A program made the translations under genes and the position numbers. Source: Zygosaccharomyces rouxii (Eukaryota > Ascomycota > Saccharomycetes > Saccharomycetales > Saccharomycetaceae). From it: a stretch of 64,000 nt of DNA. Numbering within the stretch: position 1 is the stretch's first letter; each line of letters opens with the position of its first letter. Below, piece after piece: positions 44,801 to 55,961 of this stretch. The stretch covers positions 248,001 to 312,000 of the forward strand of contig NC_012990.1 of the NCBI RefSeq assembly GCF_000026365.1, given 5' to 3'. The notes below the pieces were generated by a model. That model ran no database searches and was not told the DNA's origin. It saw nothing but the letters and a program-made list of their open reading frames with translations.

Positions 44801-47737
44801 ATGAACATTGGAGATGAAAGAACCAGTGGTGATTGCAAATTTATAAAAGATGAACAAGAACATAGACAAGAACAAGAACAAGAACACGAACAAGAGCAAG
44901 AGCATGAACATGACAGGGAAGGAGAGCAAGAGGAGGATAATGAACCCGTTACTTCTTTGAAAGATCTAAATATATCAGACAAGAAGAAGCTATCATCAAA
45001 CGTTATACGCGGGAGAAAGGCAAGTACTTATTTGAGAATATTCAGAGATGACGAAGGGTTAACGGATAACAATATACATAGACAAATCATCAAGCAACAA
45101 GAGCTGAATGCAAGACAAGAACCGCAACCAGTGCCACAGAAGCCACAACAGGAGGTAGTTGTACATCCTCAGCAAGATAAGAAAACAAAGAAACCAACAT
45201 CTTTCTATGATACTAATTACAAGTTTTCCATTAAGCCTGAAGGGAAATCTTCGAGATCTCAAAATCCTCTAGCGTCGAAGCCTTATGCAGTAGCGAAATA
45301 TTTGGAATCTGCAATTTCTGAACCGAATAAACAACAGCAGCAACAGATGCAACAAACCGATTTGGGTTTAAAACCAGTTTCATCGGCTACATATTATCCG
45401 CATAAATCGAGGGGTTCTACGCGGTCAATAAGTGATGAAGAGCCTGGCGAGGGGACTGCGATCCCAGTTGTCCCAAGATTTCAATATAAAGGTACGTCGG
45501 TTGCTGAGACCGAAGCGACAACACTAGCATCGATTACACACGACCATGTGGCGCAATCACCGGATGGACGAGCTTCAGGTTCAATTTCAGAAGCAGCTGT
45601 GGAAAGTGATGAAGATTACTACGATGATAATGAGGAAGATGAAGAAGAGAAAGATAGTGTTTATCCTTTAGCCGTTGAACTACAGCCTTTTACCAATAAC
45701 GTTGGCGGTCACACTGCGATCTTCCGTTTTTCAAAACGCGCTGTTTGCAAGGCTTTAGTCAATAGAGAGAATCGATGGTATGAAAATATTGAAGTTAATC
45801 ATAAAGAATTGTTACAATTCATGCCTCGTTACATTGGCGTGTTAAACGTTAGACAGCATTTCCATAACAAAGAAGATTTTTTGAGAGAATTATCATCTTC
45901 GCAAAGGCATAAACAAGAGCATAGGGCATTTCCATCATCACGGTGTATTAAACTGTACCAACAACAACGGCAGCAACTGGAGAATCAAGACCAGCAGCAT
46001 CAACATCAGCATTATGATCAACATCAGCAACAGCAGCAGCAGCAACGAGGACAATACCTGCCACAATTTCAACAAAATAATTGCTCAAGAAGCATTTCTT
46101 GTAATAGTAGCAGTGAAATGGGTGGGTTACCTGAAGTGGTTCTTAGCGATAATAGACACATGGTGCCGGATTCCATGTTAAGCATGTATCCATCCAACTT
46201 ATGCAATTCCTCAGGAACAGGTTCTTTTCTACAGTCAACAGGCGGATCGTCTGGTAAAGAATCATCGGGTTCCACTACGGTAAATACCAAATTGAAAGAA
46301 TTAGTACTACAGGAGGTATTTGCGCTTTCACCAGGAGAGCATGATATAATAGAAGGTCATTTGAAAAAGGTAAGAAGACCATCATCAATAAAGAAAAGTC
46401 GTTCAAGTTCTCAAGATTCTTCGTCACAATCAACCTCAAGAAGAGGCTCTAATTATTCTTTGAAAAATGTTCCAAATCAAGGTTCAGGTTCTCCTCTTTT
46501 GAAGAAATCAATTAGAGAGACCATTTCTCACTCTTTGAATAGTCCAAGTTCAATGATGGATTTGAGACAATTTCAGAAGAAGGAACTGGTCAGGGAAAAA
46601 TCACAACTAAGAAGGGCAAGCTTGTCATCTTCAAAAGATGAGAACAATCCTACGATCTCGCCATTATCACTACCGAGAGACCATCCATTAGTGGAGGAGT
46701 TTGCAGTGGAAAATGAGGATGATACAAACTTCAGCCTTGATGGTAAAGAAAATCATACTAATACTATCAGTACTACTAATAGTGACATTACTAATAATAC
46801 TAGTAGTGCCGGTAGTACTAGCAATACTAGTCATCTCGCAAAACCAAGTCAAGGTAAGCATAACGAATCAATTACTTTTGAAGAACATTCCGATACTGTT
46901 GTATCAAAATTTATATTATTGGAAGATTTAACAAGAAAATTGAATAAACCTTGTGCTCTCGATCTAAAGATGGGAACAAGACAATACGGTGTAGACGCTA
47001 AACCATCCAAACAACATTCACAACGTAAGAAATGTTTAAAGACAACTTCTAAAAAATTAGGAGTTCGTATCTGTGGTCTAAAGATTTGGAATCAAACTTA
47101 TTACATCACAAGAGATAAATATTTCGGTAGAAGAGTACAGGCTGGTTGGCAATTTACAAGAGTCTTAGCGAGATTCATCTACGACGGTCTTCATATTTCA
47201 AGTGTCGTTAGACAAATCCCCAGGTTGACCAAACAATTAGATACCTTAGGTTCAGAAATTGCCCATTTAAAAGGTTACAGATTATACGGATCATCACTTC
47301 TTTTAATGTTTGATGGCAATGATTCAGGTAACAAAAGATGTAGGGTTAAAGTGAATCTGATCGATTTTGCCCGTTGTGTGACAAAAGAGGACTTAAAGGA
47401 AAGTTACGATTTATTCCGTATACCACCAAAGAATCCTGATGTTGAGGATCGTGGATTTTTAAGAGGGGTTCGTAGTTTGAAATTTTACCTGATGCTAATT
47501 TGGAACTATTTGACTAACGACGCTCCACTTTGTAACGATGATGAAGAGTTACAAACATTTTTACAAGAGAACGTTGAAAAATTCGACAAACCATGGGATT
47601 GGTTGGATGAGTTTGATGAAGAAGATGAAGAAGAATTTAATAGTCCAACCAGTCCATTGAGGAAAAAATGGAGAAAATACGAATTAATCTTCAACACGGA
47701 ACCAAGATTCACTAACGATGGAGAGATGAGCGATTAA
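44801..47737 (+). CDS. KCS1: KCS1, inositol hexakisphosphate kinase
   Basis: 978 residues from the ATG at 44801 (a TTG opens the frame at 44795). The first 60 residues contain repeated EQ/EH dipeptides, and a Gln/His-rich tract lies at about residues 385-420. The catalytic domain occupies the last third: PCALDLKMGTRQYG (PxxxDxKxG inositol-phosphate kinase motif, near residue 715), the C-terminal SSLLLMFDGND and the LIDFAR segment. Kcs1 makes the 5-pyrophosphate of inositol hexakisphosphate and affects phosphate signalling, vacuoles and telomere length. It heads the KCS1-DAD1-HED1 block (YDR017C-YDR016C-YDR014W-A). Confidence 0.95.
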   Translation: MNIGDERTSGDCKFIKDEQEHRQEQEQEHEQEQEHEHDREGEQEEDNEPVTSLKDLNISDKKKLSSNVIRGRKASTYLRIFRDDEGLTDNNIHRQIIKQQELNARQEPQPVPQKPQQEVVVHPQQDKKTKKPTSFYDTNYKFSIKPEGKSSRSQNPLASKPYAVAKYLESAISEPNKQQQQQMQQTDLGLKPVSSATYYPHKSRGSTRSISDEEPGEGTAIPVVPRFQYKGTSVAETEATTLASITHDHVAQSPDGRASGSISEAAVESDEDYYDDNEEDEEEKDSVYPLAVELQPFTNNVGGHTAIFRFSKRAVCKALVNRENRWYENIEVNHKELLQFMPRYIGVLNVRQHFHNKEDFLRELSSSQRHKQEHRAFPSSRCIKLYQQQRQQLENQDQQHQHQHYDQHQQQQQQQRGQYLPQFQQNNCSRSISCNSSSEMGGLPEVVLSDNRHMVPDSMLSMYPSNLCNSSGTGSFLQSTGGSSGKESSGSTTVNTKLKELVLQEVFALSPGEHDIIEGHLKKVRRPSSIKKSRSSSQDSSSQSTSRRGSNYSLKNVPNQGSGSPLLKKSIRETISHSLNSPSSMMDLRQFQKKELVREKSQLRRASLSSSKDENNPTISPLSLPRDHPLVEEFAVENEDDTNFSLDGKENHTNTISTTNSDITNNTSSAGSTSNTSHLAKPSQGKHNESITFEEHSDTVVSKFILLEDLTRKLNKPCALDLKMGTRQYGVDAKPSKQHSQRKKCLKTTSKKLGVRICGLKIWNQTYYITRDKYFGRRVQAGWQFTRVLARFIYDGLHISSVVRQIPRLTKQLDTLGSEIAHLKGYRLYGSSLLLMFDGNDSGNKRCRVKVNLIDFARCVTKEDLKESYDLFRIPPKNPDVEDRGFLRGVRSLKFYLMLIWNYLTNDAPLCNDDEELQTFLQENVEKFDKPWDWLDEFDEEDEEEFNSPTSPLRKKWRKYELIFNTEPRFTNDGEMSD

Positions 47738-48207
47738 GGCAACCGACCCTTCCCCCTTTGTAATAATAAATATCCAAGTAATGGCAGTAATGAAAAAAAA
47801 GATCAAAATAGTAAAATAAATACGATGATATTATGTGTGTGTGAACAACAGTAATGCCAGGTGAAACGGAATGGGTTCGCCCGACTGAACTTAAGTCGTT
47901 CAAGCCAATCTTCCAGCTTAGAGAGACCGTCCCAATGTTGGCGAAATTGGGACAGCCAATGATACTGGTTGTTGTTATTTATTTTTCTTCTTTGTAAACC
48001 AAAAGTGAGATTAACAGGTGATGGAAGCGATAAATATTTCATCAACTTGCATCTTTTTATTATGGATAAAATATGCGGGTAACCCAATGAATTGTTGATG
48101 AAAAGGAAATTCCATCACGGCTTTAAAACAAGGGCTCAGGCTCAGGCACTGGTTTATACTTCAACGATACATGCAAACAGGGCTAGGCGGTCTGGTTGTA
48201 GAAAGTC
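47738..48207. other. KCS1-DAD1 intergenic region
   Basis: 470 bp. A Reb1-type CGGGTAA lies at 48076-48082, about 130 bp upstream of DAD1. Nothing else recognised. Confidence 0.5.
48076..48082. promoter_or_regulatory. Reb1-type site CGGGTAA upstream of DAD1
   Basis: Exact core, 126 bp before the DAD1 start. Confidence 0.45.
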
Positions 48208-48495
48208 ATGAATAATGATACTTCAGCTAGGGATAAAGAGGAAAATGTACCTGTACCAACACTGAGTGCTGCTGACAAGTATTTCATCGAGCAACGTGAT
48301 CTAGTTTTACAAGATATCAACAACACGATGGATTCGATTTTGAATAATCTCAATTCTTTGAACATCTCGCTAGAGAATTCCATCGCTGTTGGTAAAGAAT
48401 TTGAGTCAGTAGCTGAATTGTGGAAAACATTTTATAACGGTTTAGAAGGTACAGAAACTGTATCGTCATCACAAGACGATGAATTAGAAAAATAA
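48208..48495 (+). CDS. DAD1: DAD1, DASH/Dam1 kinetochore complex subunit
   Basis: 95 residues against 94 in yeast. The helical core YFIEQRDLVLQDINNTMDSILNNLNSLNISLENSIAVGKEFESVAELWKTFYNGLE is strongly conserved. Dad1 is part of the ring-forming complex that couples kinetochores to microtubules. The stop codon directly abuts that of HED1 on the opposite strand (no spacer), so the two transcripts must overlap. Confidence 0.96.
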   Translation: MNNDTSARDKEENVPVPTLSAADKYFIEQRDLVLQDINNTMDSILNNLNSLNISLENSIAVGKEFESVAELWKTFYNGLEGTETVSSSQDDELEK

Positions 48496-49086
48496 TCATT
48501 GTAAAGATGAGGCTCCGTTAATTTTCCTCCTTGGGTGTAAACTGGGTACTTTCTTCGATAATCCAACTTTAATCCTTACCTTATTAGAATCAACGTCGTA
48601 AGCCTCTTTGTTGGCCTTAAAGATAAGATCCTTTAATGGTTTGTGAACGTTTTCAGGTGGTAAAGAATCGTTAACAGATGTACTCAAGGTATCCGTGTAT
48701 GATCCATCCTCCAAATCGCCTTCGTATTCAGAAGATGAAGATGGTGGATCTCCCAAAGTACTATTATTGCTATGGAAAGAAGATTCACAATTTGCTTGTA
48801 CCTCTGTATTCTGTGAGGAAGAGTTATTGGCTTCCTCTTGCTCTGTTCCCGAACTTCCAGGCAGAGCAGTGTACTTTATTCCTGCAAATTCCTCATCTTC
48901 TCGATTACTGAAATATTGTGCTGGCTCGTAAGACGCTTCTTCAACATCCGATTTGGCCTCAACCAATTCCAATCCACCCAATCTTTCTTCAACGTGTGAA
49001 AGGGGTGATACCGCCGATGTTGTGGAAGCTCTCTTGAGACCTGCTGTGTGAGCTGCTGGCTGATACGTAGTAACACTTCTCCTCAT
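48496..49086 (-). CDS. HED1: HED1-like meiotic Rad51 regulator
   Basis: 196 residues from the ATG at 49086 (the frame is open one codon further, but from GTG). Mostly acidic and serine-rich, with a basic C-terminus (VRIKVGLSKKVPSLHPRRKINGAS) that would be the DNA- and Rad51-contacting end. The call relies on position between DAD1 and RAD61 and on the basic C-terminal block; yeast Hed1 has 162 residues. Hed1 inhibits Rad51 during meiosis in favour of Dmc1. A TATA box (minus strand, 49171-49178) and a URS1-like site lie about 90-100 bp upstream, fitting meiotic control. Confidence 0.7.
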   Translation of the reverse strand: MRRSVTTYQPAAHTAGLKRASTTSAVSPLSHVEERLGGLELVEAKSDVEEASYEPAQYFSNREDEEFAGIKYTALPGSSGTEQEEANNSSSQNTEVQANCESSFHSNNSTLGDPPSSSSEYEGDLEDGSYTDTLSTSVNDSLPPENVHKPLKDLIFKANKEAYDVDSNKVRIKVGLSKKVPSLHPRRKINGASSLQ

Positions 49087-49179
49087 CACTGGAGTTTCTG
49101 CTGCTTTATTTCCCTTTCTATTTGAAGTAGTAACTAGGAGAAAAAGTGAATAAAGGAGGTTCTAAATATGCTTTTATAC

Positions 49180-49189
49180 TCAGCGGCTA
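49180..49189 (-). promoter_or_regulatory. URS1-like site upstream of HED1
   Basis: The minus strand reads TAGCCGCTGA, nine of ten bases of the Ume6 site TAGCCGCCGA, 94 bp upstream of the HED1 start and next to its TATA box. Confidence 0.45.
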
Positions 49190-49229
49190 ATCCGTGATCA
49201 TTTAATACGTGGATTTTTTTTTCTGGGGC

Positions 49230-49237
49230 TATAAAAG
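49230..49237 (+). promoter_or_regulatory. plus-strand TATA box with no coding sequence behind it
   Basis: TATAAAAG followed by GAGGAG. The nearest plus-strand start codon of a real gene (PDX3) is 900 bp away, so this TATA box implies a non-coding transcript starting near 49265-49300. Confidence 0.5.
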
Positions 49238-49264
49238 GAGGAGCGAGGTTTGGAAACGCGTTAC

Positions 49265-49890
49265 ACTCTTCCCTCTCTTACCTTCAGAAACACACCAAAC
49301 AAATAAGTCATTGTGTGATTGTGATGAGCCCATCATTACAGTCGTAGGTCTGGTAAGTGGCAGATGCTCATTTTCGAAAGAATGGCATGAGATGCCAACG
49401 GATCGAAGTGAGTCTCGTCTGCCGCTGAGAACCCATACCTCGTACCACAACACCCATACTGCAATCGGGAACTGCCCTCGACCGGTTTGGGCAAGATACA
49501 TAGTGTATCACAACGATGGTAGCCTTGGATTTGAGCTAGGTTTGCAAAATGGATGAAGTACATGCTTCTCAGAACGCCAAAAGGGCCCGAACGAATGTCT
49601 GGCTCATGGATAATCCGTTGGTTACGATCAGTTGTTATAAGATTTTTGCCCATTCCTTAATTTGTTTCCAATACGTAAATGGGCCTCTTTTCAGTGAATT
49701 TTCTCTCCCATCATGAGCAAAATTCATTTACCAGATGGTCTCAAAGGCCATGGACTACATTGGCTTGTTTGATGAACTGAGCTGGCTTATTAGGGTATCC
49801 GTATTGGCTTTTGGGGCAGTCTTCCAAGTACGTTTGCCAAATCTGCCAGCTAGTTATCACTATCACTTTTTGGAAACTGATCACCCCTTC
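49265..49890 (+). ncRNA. candidate telomerase RNA gene (TLC1-like); ends approximate
   Basis: Seen: an 8-bp stem GTGGCAGA (49357-49364) with TCTGCCGC (49418-49425, one G-T pair), then five bases later a C/A-rich segment 49431-49459 that begins and ends with the same 8 bases (ACCCATAC at 49431-49438 and 49452-49459). Its complement is G/T-rich with a single C in the unit and contains a Rap1 core GGTATGGGTGT-type sequence, like known yeast telomere repeats. Further right are a TGAATTTT/AAAATTCA hairpin (about 49694-49725), an 11-bp bulged stem (49775-49786 with 49845-49855), an Sm-like ACTTTTTGGA (49865-49874), and an outer 8-bp helix GATCAGTT/AACTGATC (49626-49633 with 49875-49882) enclosing both hairpins. 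Known: TLC1 neighbours PDX3 in S. cerevisiae. Against: about 600 bases is short for this family, the Sm site is imperfect, and the orientation relative to PDX3 differs from what I recall for TLC1. Alternatives are tandem Rap1 sites or an H/ACA RNA on the other strand. Confidence 0.42.
49431..49459 (+). other. putative telomerase template: 21-base unit with 8-base terminal repeat
   Basis: The unit ACCCATACCTCG + TACCACAAC (49431-49451) is followed by a second ACCCATAC. A template of one unit plus a terminal repeat lets telomerase realign after each copy, as in Kluyveromyces lactis. Read as DNA it also gives two Rap1-core sites 21 bp apart, the alternative explanation. Confidence 0.45.
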
Positions 49891-50140
49891 ATTATCATCT
49901 ATTGATGAGAAGTTGGAATTGAAAAAAGACGTGGTAAAACGCCTTAAATTCGTCGTCATCACCTATCACTTGACCATACTCAAAGTTAACCGTATCGTGA
50001 TGTCTGCTTCCCCATTCTTTTTTTTTCCTTTTCTTTCTTTTCTTTCTTTATCTTTGTTCGTTAACGAGTTCCTTTCCCTGTTCATCACCCCAGAGTTTAA
50101 ACCGTGACTTTTATAAACATCTTGTTGTAATAAAAGAAAG

Positions 50141-50905
50141 ATGAGCATTGGACTTTTAAGGCAATTCGTTTCAAGAATATCTTGCTCGTTACCCAAATAC
50201 CGTCCATTTATTAAAACTATGGCTGACGACATTGAAAGAACTCAAACCCCTATTATCTTTGCGCCTGAAACTTATCAATACGACAAGTCTTCACTTAACG
50301 AATCGCAACTGGTCAAAGATCCAATAGAACAGTTCACTAGATGGTTCGAAGAAGCCAAGAGTGATAAATCAGAAACCCTGCCAGAAGCCATTACCTTTTC
50401 GTCTGCTGAGTTACCAAGTGGTAGAGTCTCATCAAGGGTGTTACTTTTCAAAGAACTAGATCATCGTGGATTCGTTATATACTCTAACTGGGGAACTTCC
50501 AAGAAAGCTCGAGACATCCAATCCAACCCCCATGGTGCGATCAATTTCTTTTGGAAAGATTTACAAAGACAAGTCAGGGTGGAAGGTTTTACAGAACATG
50601 TTAACCGTGAAACTTCGGAAAGATATTTTAAGGTAAGACCCCGTGGATCAAAGATTGGTGCCTGGTCTTCACCACAATCATCTACCATCAAGAGTAGAGA
50701 TGAACTAGATCAATTGACCGCTGCTAACACTAAAAAATTCGAAGGTCAGGAAGAAATTCCATGCCCGGACTACTGGGGTGGAGTGAGAGTGGTTCCCCTC
50801 GAAATTGAATTTTGGCAAGGTAGACCAAGTCGATTACACGACCGTTTCACCTATAGGAGGAAAAGTGAACATGAAGAATGGGAAATCATTAGACTAGCAC
50901 CATGA
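50141..50905 (+). CDS. PDX3: PDX3, pyridoxamine-phosphate oxidase
   Basis: 254 residues from the first ATG, 228 from the second (50219), which equals yeast Pdx3. Conserved segments: ETLPEAITFSSAELPSGRVSSRVLLFKELDHRGFVIYSNW (FMN site), FFWKDLQRQVRVEG, RPRGSKIGAWSSPQS and the C-terminal PLEIEFWQGRPSRLHDRFTYRR. The enzyme makes pyridoxal 5'-phosphate. The 26 residues before the second Met (MSIGLLRQFVSRISCSLPKYRPFIKT) look like a mitochondrial presequence, suggesting alternative forms. Convergent with RAD61, 30 bp apart. Confidence 0.96.
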   Translation: MSIGLLRQFVSRISCSLPKYRPFIKTMADDIERTQTPIIFAPETYQYDKSSLNESQLVKDPIEQFTRWFEEAKSDKSETLPEAITFSSAELPSGRVSSRVLLFKELDHRGFVIYSNWGTSKKARDIQSNPHGAINFFWKDLQRQVRVEGFTEHVNRETSERYFKVRPRGSKIGAWSSPQSSTIKSRDELDQLTAANTKKFEGQEEIPCPDYWGGVRVVPLEIEFWQGRPSRLHDRFTYRRKSEHEEWEIIRLAP

Positions 50906-50935
50906 AATTTAGACATTTAGAGAAATTTAAAGAGT

Positions 50936-52639
50936 TTATAATTTATCTGTGACGTATTTGATCTTATCTGAGATACTTCCATTATAATGCTGGGATTCCT
51001 GGGCAAAAAGCTCTAAATGTGAAATTAAACCTGTTTTCACTTTAGTCGGCAACCTTTTGTTTAACAAAACAGTCATATAGGCAAAATTCAAATAAAACAT
51101 GTTAAGCAAAAACGAGTCGTCGTCATTGGACTCTAATTTATGGAAGAAAGTTTGTGCCTGTAGCCATAATGCATTTTCTAAGTGTGATATTCCACTTTCA
51201 CCACTAATAACGTTCAAACATAGACCAAGATGGAGAATAAGAATATCTGTAGATCCTAATGGCGGCAAATGATCAAGAACAAACTTCATACAGGTATGAA
51301 AAACTTCGCTATTCCTTTCCAAAGTTTCTTCATTAGTGAATAAAATCAATGATTTGATTAGATGGTCATCTTGGCAATTATTCGGTAGCAGATCTATTAA
51401 TTTGTTGGAAACAACTGACAACAGATTAGCATCTTCAGCAGTATTTCCACTAGAGGCTAATTTCTCTACTACAGGGAAAATTCCACGTGGCAAAGCCTCA
51501 CTTGCCACAAGAGTTTGTACGATCCGATTAACCAGCGGAGCACACGAAAGTATTACCCCAGGATATTGAACGCACAGTTCCAACACATACTCCTGACCCG
51601 TTCTATCTTGAGTATTATGCAAAAAATCGTTGTAATTCAATTGTGCAATCTTGTTACCAGATAACCCATTAATAGGTAATCGATTCCGTTTGTAAAGTGC
51701 CTGTATAAATTCATTGAAGAATTTCGGCAGTTCGTTTGGCGGCAGTTGGAATTTAGTCGCAAGAAACCCCTGTATTAACAACAAGACATCATCATGAAAA
51801 TCCATTTGGTGGAAAGTTCTTCTCCACATGTCTCGTGCTTGTCGTTTGTTCACATAGCGGCAAAACTCTTGATCACCGTTCATTGCTAATGCAATATTTA
51901 AAAGATGCGAAACGAACTGAGACCGTGACATTCGTGACGGTGTCCCTTCTAATAACAATTCTAAGTCATCTTGGTACTGTAACATATCCCCCATATTTTT
52001 CAATTCGTTGATGTGATATGTTTGACTATCGTCTCCATCCTTCGTATCACCATCTTCGGTCGGTTTTGGCTCCTCATCTTCTGCTTCCAAACCTTCTTCT
52101 TCATCTTTGCTCATTAGCATAGTTCGAGAACGATCGTAGGTCAATTTCCCAGAAGTGTTCTTCGAGGTACCATCCTCTACTGACTTTTCCAACTCTTTCT
52201 TAAACGTATCTTGTAATAGCGTCTCATCACTACTCTTCAAAGAGGATACAAATGTGTTTAGGTCATTAATTGTCCTGTTTAAGGGGTTTTCGTCTACATT
52301 AGTGTCTTTCTTGTCCTGCGTATCATCTGAGTGATCCTCGTGGTAAATCCTTCTTCTCTTCTTAGGTGCCTGAGCCTTATCCAGGAAGTCAAAAGCCTTC
52401 AAATTGGACACATTCGAACCTACACTTGAAACTAAACTTGAATCCACACTTGGATTCATTTTTGAATCACTTGTCATAGGGCGAATGTCATCTGTAGAGT
52501 TATCAATCACAGTTTCACGTTCGTTACTCTCCAATATGGGTTCTGGTTCGGACTCATAGTCACTTAATTCCACCTCAGATGAATTATTCTGACTGGCATA
52601 AATCCCTAATGATCCACTACGCTTGCCATAGACCTTCAT
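50936..52639 (-). CDS. RAD61: RAD61/WPL1, cohesin release factor
   Basis: 567 residues against 647 in yeast. The N-terminal 190 residues are acidic and disordered; the rest (from about residue 200, YHINELKNMGDMLQYQDDLELLLEGTPSRMSRSQFVSHLLNIALAMNGDQEFCRYVNK) is the helical Wapl domain. Rad61 works with Pds5 to open cohesin rings. Identification from the Wapl-type block and position among HED1 and PSF1 (YDR014W, YDR013W). Confidence 0.92.
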   Translation of the reverse strand: MKVYGKRSGSLGIYASQNNSSEVELSDYESEPEPILESNERETVIDNSTDDIRPMTSDSKMNPSVDSSLVSSVGSNVSNLKAFDFLDKAQAPKKRRRIYHEDHSDDTQDKKDTNVDENPLNRTINDLNTFVSSLKSSDETLLQDTFKKELEKSVEDGTSKNTSGKLTYDRSRTMLMSKDEEEGLEAEDEEPKPTEDGDTKDGDDSQTYHINELKNMGDMLQYQDDLELLLEGTPSRMSRSQFVSHLLNIALAMNGDQEFCRYVNKRQARDMWRRTFHQMDFHDDVLLLIQGFLATKFQLPPNELPKFFNEFIQALYKRNRLPINGLSGNKIAQLNYNDFLHNTQDRTGQEYVLELCVQYPGVILSCAPLVNRIVQTLVASEALPRGIFPVVEKLASSGNTAEDANLLSVVSNKLIDLLPNNCQDDHLIKSLILFTNEETLERNSEVFHTCMKFVLDHLPPLGSTDILILHLGLCLNVISGESGISHLENALWLQAQTFFHKLESNDDDSFLLNMFYLNFAYMTVLLNKRLPTKVKTGLISHLELFAQESQHYNGSISDKIKYVTDKL

Positions 52640-52788
52640 TAGCAGGCCATTACCATCGATCTTATTACGCGACTGTTCAATATGGAACGCGGTAATGTTT
52701 TAAAGAGATGTTCATCTCATCTCAAACTTAGCTTTTAATTTGAAACCGGTCAAAGAAGTGAAAAGTGAGAGTAATAGAGATTTAACTG

Positions 52789-53415
52789 ATGTATGGTGAT
52801 TTAGCTAATAAGCTTGTATTGGAGGCTAAGAGAACAAAACAATTGAATGGTAGAAACAACCAGCGGTACGCACTACCCATGTACCACGAAGAACTTGTAC
52901 AAGGAATATTGAGAGAAGTAACGCAGCTGAAGAGGAACTCAGAGTTTTTAAAAGATCAGCAACAACTGGCTCTCGTTGATGACAAGATTTCTAAATGCCA
53001 GTATTTTGTTACTTTGCTCTGCATGGAGAGAAACAAGAGATGTCTCTTGGCATATCAGAAAGTCAGGTCCGATATCTTAAACTCTTTGGCCTGGGAAAAT
53101 AATGGGTTAGATATAATGAACGGTCTCATAGGAGCAGAACAAGACACCAGTGATTTATCCCATCAAGAACAAGACTATTTGAAAGAGTATACTGATCTTT
53201 TAACGGAATTAAAAAGTGGTGATTTAGCAGATATCGACCTTTCAGGCAGTCTAACACCGCCAAGTGATGTGTTCATCGACGTGAGAGTGCTTAAAGATGC
53301 AGGAGAGATTCAAACGGAGTACGGTGCATTCAACTTGATTAAAGATTCTCAATTTTTCGTTAGACAGTCGGATGTGGAAAGACTGATTCAGCAAGGGTAC
53401 CTACAAAAGATTTAG
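52789..53415 (+). CDS. PSF1: PSF1, GINS complex subunit
   Basis: 208 residues, exactly the yeast length. MYGDLANKLVLEAKRT, the central KCQYFVTLLCMERNKRCLLAYQKVR and the C-terminal SQFFVRQSDVERLIQQGYLQKI are strongly conserved. GINS (Sld5-Psf1-Psf2-Psf3) is part of the CMG replicative helicase. It is divergent from RAD61 here, whereas the two genes are in tandem in S. cerevisiae. Confidence 0.97.
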   Translation: MYGDLANKLVLEAKRTKQLNGRNNQRYALPMYHEELVQGILREVTQLKRNSEFLKDQQQLALVDDKISKCQYFVTLLCMERNKRCLLAYQKVRSDILNSLAWENNGLDIMNGLIGAEQDTSDLSHQEQDYLKEYTDLLTELKSGDLADIDLSGSLTPPSDVFIDVRVLKDAGEIQTEYGAFNLIKDSQFFVRQSDVERLIQQGYLQKI

Positions 53416-53708
53416 ATGCAGATGAAGAAACCGAATACTGGCTACAATTATACTTGCCTCCCAAGCTCTGGCGGCTCACAATGGCTTCTCATCGACTTTA
53501 GCATGTGCGGTGTATGGTTGCGATGATCTTGGACAAAGTTAAAGTTCAGACGAAAAAAAAGTAATCTTGAAAAAGGCCGATGGGCATCGTGAAATTTTTT
53601 ACCCATAAAACAAAATATTGAACACTAAGTCGAGACATTGAAGAAATTTCAAGTAGTTGAATACTCCTATTAGTTGAACTACCAAAGATATTTCACTCTC
53701 CAGCAGTC

Positions 53709-54737
53709 ATGGAATCAGCTACACAGAAGAGCGCCTTGACTCAAAGCGAGCAGCACTATTTCAATTCTTACGATCATTATGGTATTCATGAGGAGATGCT
53801 TCAAGATTCTGTAAGAACCTTATCCTATAGAAATGCCATTGCTCAGAACAAGGATTTATTCAAGGATAAGGTTGTTCTAGATGTCGGTTGCGGGACAGGT
53901 ATTTTATCGATGTTCGCTGCTAAATACGGTGCTAAACATGTTATTGGTGTCGATATGTCGAGTATTATTGAAATGGCTCAACAGCTCGTCGATTTGAATG
54001 GGTATGGTGACAAGATCACTCTTCTACGTGGTAAATTGGAGGATGTTCAATTACCTTTCCCCAAAGTGGATATCATTGTCTCTGAGTGGATGGGATACTT
54101 TTTACTCTATGAATCCATGTTAGATACCGTTCTTTATGCAAGAGATCATTTCTTAGTTGAAGGTGGATTGATTCTCCCAGATAAATGTTCTTTACACATT
54201 GCAGGTTTAGAAGATTTTCAATACAAGGATGAGAAATTGAGCTATTGGCAGGATGTTTATGGATTTGATTTTTCACCATTCATACCACACGTTATGAAGG
54301 AACCAATTGTAGACACGGTGGAAAGTCAAGTTGTCAACACGACAAAGTGTGAGTTAATCGAATTCGACTTAAACACTGTTCAATTGTCGGACCTTTCATT
54401 CACTGCTAAATTTGAAGTACAAGCTAAAAGACGAGATTGGATTAATGGTATAATTACTTGGTTCGACGTTAAGTTCCCTGCACCACCAGGTGAAAAGCCG
54501 GTCACCTTTTCTACTGGTGCACATGCACCATATACGCATTGGAAACAATCTGTTTTCTATACCGCCGATGATTTAGAATGTGAAGAAGGTGACATTTTGA
54601 AGGGTCAAATAATATGCCAACCAAACAAATTCCATAAGAGAGATTTGGACATCAAGCTCACTTACGATTTCCAGGCAAAGGGTGTGGATGGTGACCGTAG
54701 ATGTAAGAAAAACACAAACTACTATATAATGCACTAG
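53709..54737 (+). CDS. HMT1: HMT1, type I protein arginine methyltransferase
   Basis: 342 residues against 348 in yeast. S-adenosylmethionine motif I VVLDVGCGTGIL (residues 55-66), the double-E loop SEWMGYFLLYE (125-135) and the THW loop (YTHWKQSVFY) are intact. Hmt1 is the major nuclear enzyme methylating RGG-rich RNA-binding proteins such as Npl3. It matches YBR034C, next to PDX3 (YBR035C) and RPL4A (YBR031W). Confidence 0.97.
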   Translation: MESATQKSALTQSEQHYFNSYDHYGIHEEMLQDSVRTLSYRNAIAQNKDLFKDKVVLDVGCGTGILSMFAAKYGAKHVIGVDMSSIIEMAQQLVDLNGYGDKITLLRGKLEDVQLPFPKVDIIVSEWMGYFLLYESMLDTVLYARDHFLVEGGLILPDKCSLHIAGLEDFQYKDEKLSYWQDVYGFDFSPFIPHVMKEPIVDTVESQVVNTTKCELIEFDLNTVQLSDLSFTAKFEVQAKRRDWINGIITWFDVKFPAPPGEKPVTFSTGAHAPYTHWKQSVFYTADDLECEEGDILKGQIICQPNKFHKRDLDIKLTYDFQAKGVDGDRRCKKNTNYYIMH

Positions 54738-54872
54738 AACTTTTCTGTTTTCTTTTTTTGAACTTCGTTCTAATGTTCTGTAAATTAAATTAGTATAGTA
54801 AGTACTAAACTAAAAGGAATAATCGATTAGGGCATATAAAAATAAAAAATTCTATATACTAGATTATTCAGT

Positions 54873-55961
54873 TTAGTCGTGCTTCAAAGTTTCGTTGAAA
54901 AGCTGAGATGGCTTAACAGAAGCCTTTGGAGCCTTCTTAGAGCCCAACTTTTCGTTAGCGAAAACCTTAGCGTATGGGTTCAATCTCATCAAGATTTGCT
55001 TGTTTCTCAATGGGTTCTTCTTCAAGACATGAGTACGCTTTTGGTTAGCTTGGCCAGCTGGTCTAACAACAGATTGGATTTCAGAAGAGTTGATGATTCT
55101 GGTAACATCAGTGGTGGAGATGATGTTAGATGGCAAGCTGTAACCAGACTTGGCAGAAGCAACAGCTTCAGAACCCCAGACCTTGTCCAACTTGGAGAAG
55201 GCACCTTCGGTCCAGATAACGAATCTACCCAAGTGAGCACCTGGAGCCAATTGCAACAAGTTCAAAGCAGTAACGTCACAAGTTTCAACACCTGGAACGT
55301 TTCTGAAAGCCTTGACCAAACCGTTGTCTTGGGCGTAGACAACCAATGGACCTCTTCTTTGAGTCCATCTTCTGTTTCTGTATTTACCCTTACCGGCTCT
55401 CAATTTCTTGGATCTGACAACCTTAACCAAGTCGGCACCAGCACCCAAAGACTTCAAAGCAGACACAGCTTCCTTGGTTCTAGTGATAGATTCCAAGTCG
55501 TTGGAAACAACCAAAGGAATTTCTGGGATCTTTTCAACTCTGTGACCTCTAGCCAAGACAAGAGAAGCGACACCAGAAGCAGCAATAGCAGAGGCAGTAG
55601 CGTAACGCTTTTCGTTTTGGTTAACCTTAACGTTCCATCTTCTCCAGGTCTTGGTTGGAGCAAACATACGACCACCACGACACATGTTACCGAAAGCACC
55701 CTGACCGGCGGCGTGGGTACCACCACCTGCAACTCTTGGAATACGGGCAACAGCACGACCAGTACCCCATGATTCAGCAGAGTGTTGCATACCGGCTTGT
55801 GGGGAGACAGAGTAAGCTTGTCTCTTGTTCTTGTTCACAGAGGTGAAAACAGAGTGAACAATGTCAGCACGGATTGGTGCTGCGAAGACAGCTGGCAATG
55901 GGACAGCTGAAGAAGTAGCTTTACCTTCTAGAGATTGAACGGAAACTTGAGGACGAGCCAT
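54873..55961 (-). CDS. RPL4: 60S ribosomal protein L4 (uL4)
   Basis: 362 residues, exactly the yeast length, no intron. [14 protein letters not shown], the tunnel-loop segment [31 protein letters not shown] and the basic C-terminus are conserved. Codon bias is extreme, which also creates a long antisense open frame. Upstream are PAC and RRPE elements; I find no clear Rap1 site, in line with L4 genes being unusual among ribosomal protein promoters. Confidence 0.98.

Follow-up and report, generated by a model that had tools for sequence, protein, structure and literature searches.

The telomerase RNA gene of Zygosaccharomyces rouxii was described in two papers, of 2018 and 2021, before the stretch of DNA considered here was first annotated. 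Table 1 of Waldl 2018 (PMC6115765) lists it on the plus strand of NC_012990.1 and gives 297,087-297,883 for the gene, 297,527-297,616 for the Est1 site and 297,865-297,873 for the Sm site; that row has no entry for a Ku hairpin, a template or a three-way junction, and the three-way junction and the Ku hairpin are said there to be missing in some other members, too. The template was identified and discussed in Peska 2021 (PMC8211666), where it is stated to correspond exactly to the 21-base telomere sequence that reads yield for Z. sapae. The two species have this template in common, and it contains the 21-base motif letter for letter; for Z. rouxii, however, that paper (PMC8211666) arrives at a telomere repeat of 6 bases with a one-base anneal, which it terms a 'paradox'. 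A repeat of 25 bases is given there for Kluyveromyces lactis (Peska 2021, PMC8211666), whose telomerase RNA, TER1, is described with a pseudoknot that contains a triplex and with a template boundary element (PMC9504884).

We analysed a window of 64,000 nucleotides, i.e. the whole stretch from 248001 to 312000 of NC_012990.1 (contig C1). The genome, which we take to be that of strain CBS 732, comprises 9,764,635 bases in 7 contigs. With 248,000 subtracted from the published NC_012990.1 coordinates, the gene listed in Waldl 2018 lies at window positions 49087-49883, its Est1 site at 49527-49616 and its Sm site at 49865-49873 (PMC6115765). The initial annotation of the window had placed a candidate telomerase RNA gene in the gap between HED1 and PDX3, and this is the published locus: position, strand, Est1 site and Sm site are shared with the entry in Waldl 2018, and the template is that of Peska 2021. 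Because the coordinates of the one paper and the template of the other agree with it, the find was correct and already in print. The interval is thus almost certainly the telomerase RNA gene of Z. rouxii, the orthologue of TLC1/TER. The assignment to Z. rouxii is backed by the agreement of the coordinates and also by a neighbouring gene product, for which a 99% identical protein carries the name Z. rouxii. Whereas the Z. rouxii row in Waldl 2018 is without a template, the present analysis places it at 49431-49459 (see the table). To this we add a predicted core anatomy, made up of two helices, one enclosing the core and one bounding the template, and of a less secure pseudoknot.

A genome-wide search with the gap sequence returned a single match, the gap itself. 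Covariance models, to which the initial annotation had looked for support, provided none: Rfam includes a yeast telomerase model, and no telomerase family of Rfam matched the gap, even with the threshold relaxed to E <= 10, nor was there a telomerase RNA match in the whole window at curated cut-offs.

The gap is bordered on one side by a gene for a 196-aa protein, which we assume to be HED1, and on the other by PDX3, an identification that a Pfam match bears out; in S. cerevisiae, TLC1 presumably neighbours PDX3 as well. To call the gap free of coding sequence, as had been done, is fair, its two antisense open reading frames of 90 and 105 aa having no Pfam match at E <= 0.01. The wider order, from 44801 to 55961, runs from an inositol polyphosphate kinase gene (KCS1-like) over DAD1, the 196-aa gene, the telomerase RNA gene and PDX3 to Wap1 (RAD61-like), PSF1, an arginine methyltransferase gene (HMT1-like) and RPL4. 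The snoRNA snR161 sits between the kinase gene and DAD1, near the telomerase RNA, and we believe that it neighbours TLC1 in S. cerevisiae, too. The neighbours listed are, we assume, split over chromosomes II and IV in S. cerevisiae, a mixture that is expected because Z. rouxii is a yeast without whole-genome duplication. The genome encodes the domain families of TERT (C7:872142), Est1 (C3:364978) and Rap1 (C3:820836).

Features of the telomerase RNA locus and its neighbours, in window positions
Feature	Position	Strand	Basis and remarks
snR161 H/ACA snoRNA	47835-47982	-	Rfam RF01237, 124.6 bits
196-aa gene	48496-49086	-	conserved, 15 homologues
TATA box TATAAAAG, presumed Pol II promoter of the telomerase RNA	49230-49237	+	sequence
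Telomerase RNA gene	49262-49883	+	Waldl 2018 Table 1; fold
Core-enclosing helix, 5' strand GTCTGGTA	49348-49355	+	predicted, minimum-energy fold; pairs with 49729-49736
Predicted template boundary helix, 5' strand	49356-49365	+	pair probability 0.80-1.0; pairs with 49417-49426
Predicted template boundary helix, 3' strand	49417-49426	+	fold, pair probability
Template: 21-base unit plus 8-base terminal repeat ACCCATAC	49431-49459	+	sequence; template of Peska 2021
Est1 arm, long bulged stem	49515-49630	+	published site 49527-49616 (Waldl 2018 Table 1); fold
Candidate H-type pseudoknot	49679-49728	+	S1 49679-49683/49707-49711, S2 49693-49702/49719-49728
Core-enclosing helix, 3' strand TACCAGAT, directly behind the pseudoknot	49729-49736	+	predicted, minimum-energy fold
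Sm-binding site ACTTTTTGG	49865-49873	+	Waldl 2018; sequence
PDX3	50141-50905		Pfam PNPOx

The 29-base C/A-rich segment ACCCATACCTCGTACCACAACACCCATAC (10 A, 14 C, 1 G, 4 T), which the initial annotation had singled out for its identical 8-base ends, is indeed found at the reported place, and it occurs exactly once in the 9.76 Mb genome. Its 8-base end, ACCCATAC, has two plus-strand sites in the window, both inside this segment, and two minus-strand sites. As in the telomerase RNAs of other Saccharomycetaceae, the template comprises one repeat plus a terminal direct repeat (29 = 21 + 8). The 21-base unit predicted initially, the reverse complement of 49431-49451, is letter for letter the Z. sapae telomere motif; the window has one copy of this motif, CCCATACCTCGTACCACAACA, at 49432, where 29 bases agree with the tandem of the motif. 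On its own, the 8-base repeat is not strong evidence; it is convincing by its setting. When the gap was shuffled 5000 times with its dinucleotides kept, 2062 shuffles had a direct repeat of 8 bases with its copies 8-37 bases apart, and 192 had one with at most two G and at least eight C, on either strand. The mean unpairedness of the template is 0.575, a value reached or exceeded by 55 of the 601 segments of 29 bases in the transcript, the template included; in the minimum-energy fold, which is that of the naked RNA, the 3' copy of ACCCATAC has six of its eight bases paired with 49485-49491.

Around the template, the predicted elements stand in the order expected of a yeast telomerase RNA core: the enclosing helix comes first, then the boundary helix, the template and the Est1 arm, and last the candidate pseudoknot and the closing strand. 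The boundary helix corresponds to the 8-bp hairpin stem of the initial annotation, in which GTGGCAGA (49357-49364) pairs with TCTGCCGC (49418-49425), with one G-U; it is part of the minimum-energy fold, where it is extended to 49356-49365/49417-49426, and the region from 49340 to 49435 folds better than 200 of 200 shuffles (z -3.72). Five bases separate it from the template, as had been claimed, or four if the extra pair 49356-49426 is counted. As far as a prediction from one sequence goes, the RNA would therefore have the helix that bounds the template on its 5' side in this family. Directly outside it lies the predicted enclosing helix of 8 bp, with a pair probability of 0.64-0.69 for 49350-49355; helices of at least 7 pairs in such a position were obtained in 84 of 20000 flank shuffles, under criteria that were set post hoc. 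The pseudoknot, with its U-rich loop CCTCTTTTC at 49684-49692 beside an A-U-rich stem, probably lies in the core closed by this helix, but is a candidate and less secure than the two helices. Its strict form arose in 2 of 1000 shuffles, with thresholds chosen after the candidate had been seen, and had replaced, once the candidate was known, a loose rule that was satisfied in 145 of 500 shuffles. In the minimum-energy fold, S2 is formed and S1 is absent, the 5' strand of the latter pairing with 49649-49653.

The plus-strand TATA box that the initial annotation had reported at 49230 is present, and the 5' end that we give for the gene, 49262, is a guess from it. For the 3' end we follow Waldl 2018 and place it 10 nt beyond the Sm site; the 5' end of that entry, at 49087, is upstream of the TATA box, and 5' ends are stated there to be approximate. 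None of 20 shuffles of 49262-49890 folds as stably as the sequence itself (z -4.46), and for the Est1 arm, 2 of 200 do (z -2.74). This arm is predicted 3' of the template, as is typical of these RNAs, and the published Est1 site falls inside its bulged stem. An Sm site near the 3' end is a further trait of Saccharomycetaceae telomerase RNAs that is found here: ACTTTTTGG is one letter off AATTTTTGG, the common form according to Waldl 2018 (PMC6115765), and the interval proposed initially ended at 49890, 17 bases past it. Between 49884 and 50140, TCTT words occur at 27.2 per kb, compared with 7.5 in the window. If TCTT is a Nab3 motif, as we presume, this stretch could be a Nab3-type 3'-end signal of the RNA, or it could simply be a T/C-rich PDX3 promoter.

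In such an arrangement, a Pol II transcript would start behind the TATA box and end near the Sm site, and its core would be closed by the helix 49348-49355/49729-49736; inside it, the boundary helix would come first, then the template and the Est1 arm, and last, probably, the pseudoknot. Est2 would set the 3' end of the chromosome on the 3' copy of ACCCATAC (49452-49459) and copy 21 bases towards the boundary helix, which would halt reverse transcription. For each further round, the product would re-anneal over at most 8 bases, and the outcome would be that (GGTATGGGTGTTGTGGTACGA)n is laid down, with one Rap1-type core per unit.

The two copies of ACCCATAC might instead act as Rap1 sites in the promoter of PDX3 or of the 196-aa gene, without any RNA gene, which we hold to be extremely improbable. 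The pattern ACACCC[AG][TC]AC, which we take to resemble the Rap1 core, matches the window at one site, plus-strand position 49450 inside the 29-base segment, and a Rap1 DNA-binding domain is encoded in the genome. However, 682 bases separate the end of the segment from the ATG of PDX3, the segment lies behind the TATA box and inside the published gene with its Est1 and Sm sites (Waldl 2018, PMC6115765), and the transcript fold is more stable than all 20 shuffles.

A different question is which repeat the telomerase RNA specifies. Peska 2021 has only CACCCA copied, with re-annealing by one base, into a 6-base telomere, whereas the initial annotation and the present analysis arrive at 21 bases and an anneal of up to 8; the two readings differ only in the repeat made. 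We consider the 6-base telomere unlikely, even though permutations of CCACAC are reported as the prevalent 6-base candidate in real Z. rouxii reads and CACCCA as present in the template (Peska 2021, PMC8211666), where ACACCCA stands at 49450. A match of six bases plus one is found in the RNA strand of the published gene for 130 of 670 six-base motif classes, on either strand for 219 of 670, and within 49262-49526 for 7 of the 37 G-free, C-rich (telomere-like) classes, and under the 6-base reading, neither the terminal repeat of 8 bases nor most of the template would have a use. Furthermore, the default in Peska 2021 is five units in tandem, which a repeat of 21 bases can reach only in reads of 105 bases or more; the species named there as redone with two units are only K. 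lactis, L. kluyveri and T. blattae, and for the 26-base motif of L. kluyveri, 100-base reads are stated to be too short for five units (PMC8211666). For Z. bailii, the same paper gives 6 bases (PMC8211666), whereas in Z. parabailii, a hybrid one of whose parents is Z. bailii, an assembly from long reads gave an 11-base consensus, tgtgggtgggg, that matches its TLC1 templates (PMC5433688). Because the five-unit default would prevent the calling of 21-base repeats in reads under 105 bases and the six-plus-one match is weak, we favour 21-base telomeres in Z. rouxii, too, over 6-base ones, and regard them as likely. Narrower than the 6-base reading is the proposal that the paradox is real, i.e. that Z. 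rouxii and Z. sapae have a common template, yet Z. rouxii makes its 6-base repeats with a one-base anneal, in which case the protein, and not the template alone, would set the repeat; this seems very unlikely to us. Among the papers listed in literature searches, drawn from a collection with few subscription papers, we noticed no further reports on Z. rouxii telomeres.

The assembly itself is unable to decide between the 21- and the 6-base repeat. At the 14 contig ends, which were scanned over 3 kb on the left and 5 kb on the right (2500 of the 3000 bases at the left end of C6 being N), neither tandem was seen, and the longest match had 10 bases. Across the whole genome, the 21-base unit with up to 3 mismatches was found in the template only, a 16-base piece of it with up to 2 mismatches in 12 places (13 for a reversed control), and TGTGGG x3 with up to 2 mismatches in none (one for a reversed control); the pattern search skips simple repeats, which makes these absences weak. 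An 84-base tandem search gave no match, but also missed the template itself and therefore carries no weight; 31 bases of the tandem had no match in one scan of viral contigs. The sequence CTACCATTAGTCATCTTATACGTA is present once each at the left ends of C4 (L018) and C7 (L021) and the right end of C5 (L027), 3 of the 14 ends, and has the same orientation towards the end in all three, which suggests that these contigs stop in common subtelomeric sequence, short of the telomere.

Compared with K. lactis TER1, the Z. rouxii RNA is alike in its probable long regular repeat, its predicted boundary element and its candidate pseudoknot, and differs in repeat length. Telomerase RNAs evade ordinary similarity searches, and Rfam has no telomerase match here, yet the logic of the sequence alone was sufficient to find the gene, in agreement with two papers (Waldl 2018; Peska 2021). 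The choice between 21 and 6 bases tests whether the terminal repeats of a template predict the telomere of a yeast, and also how credible an anneal of just one base is.
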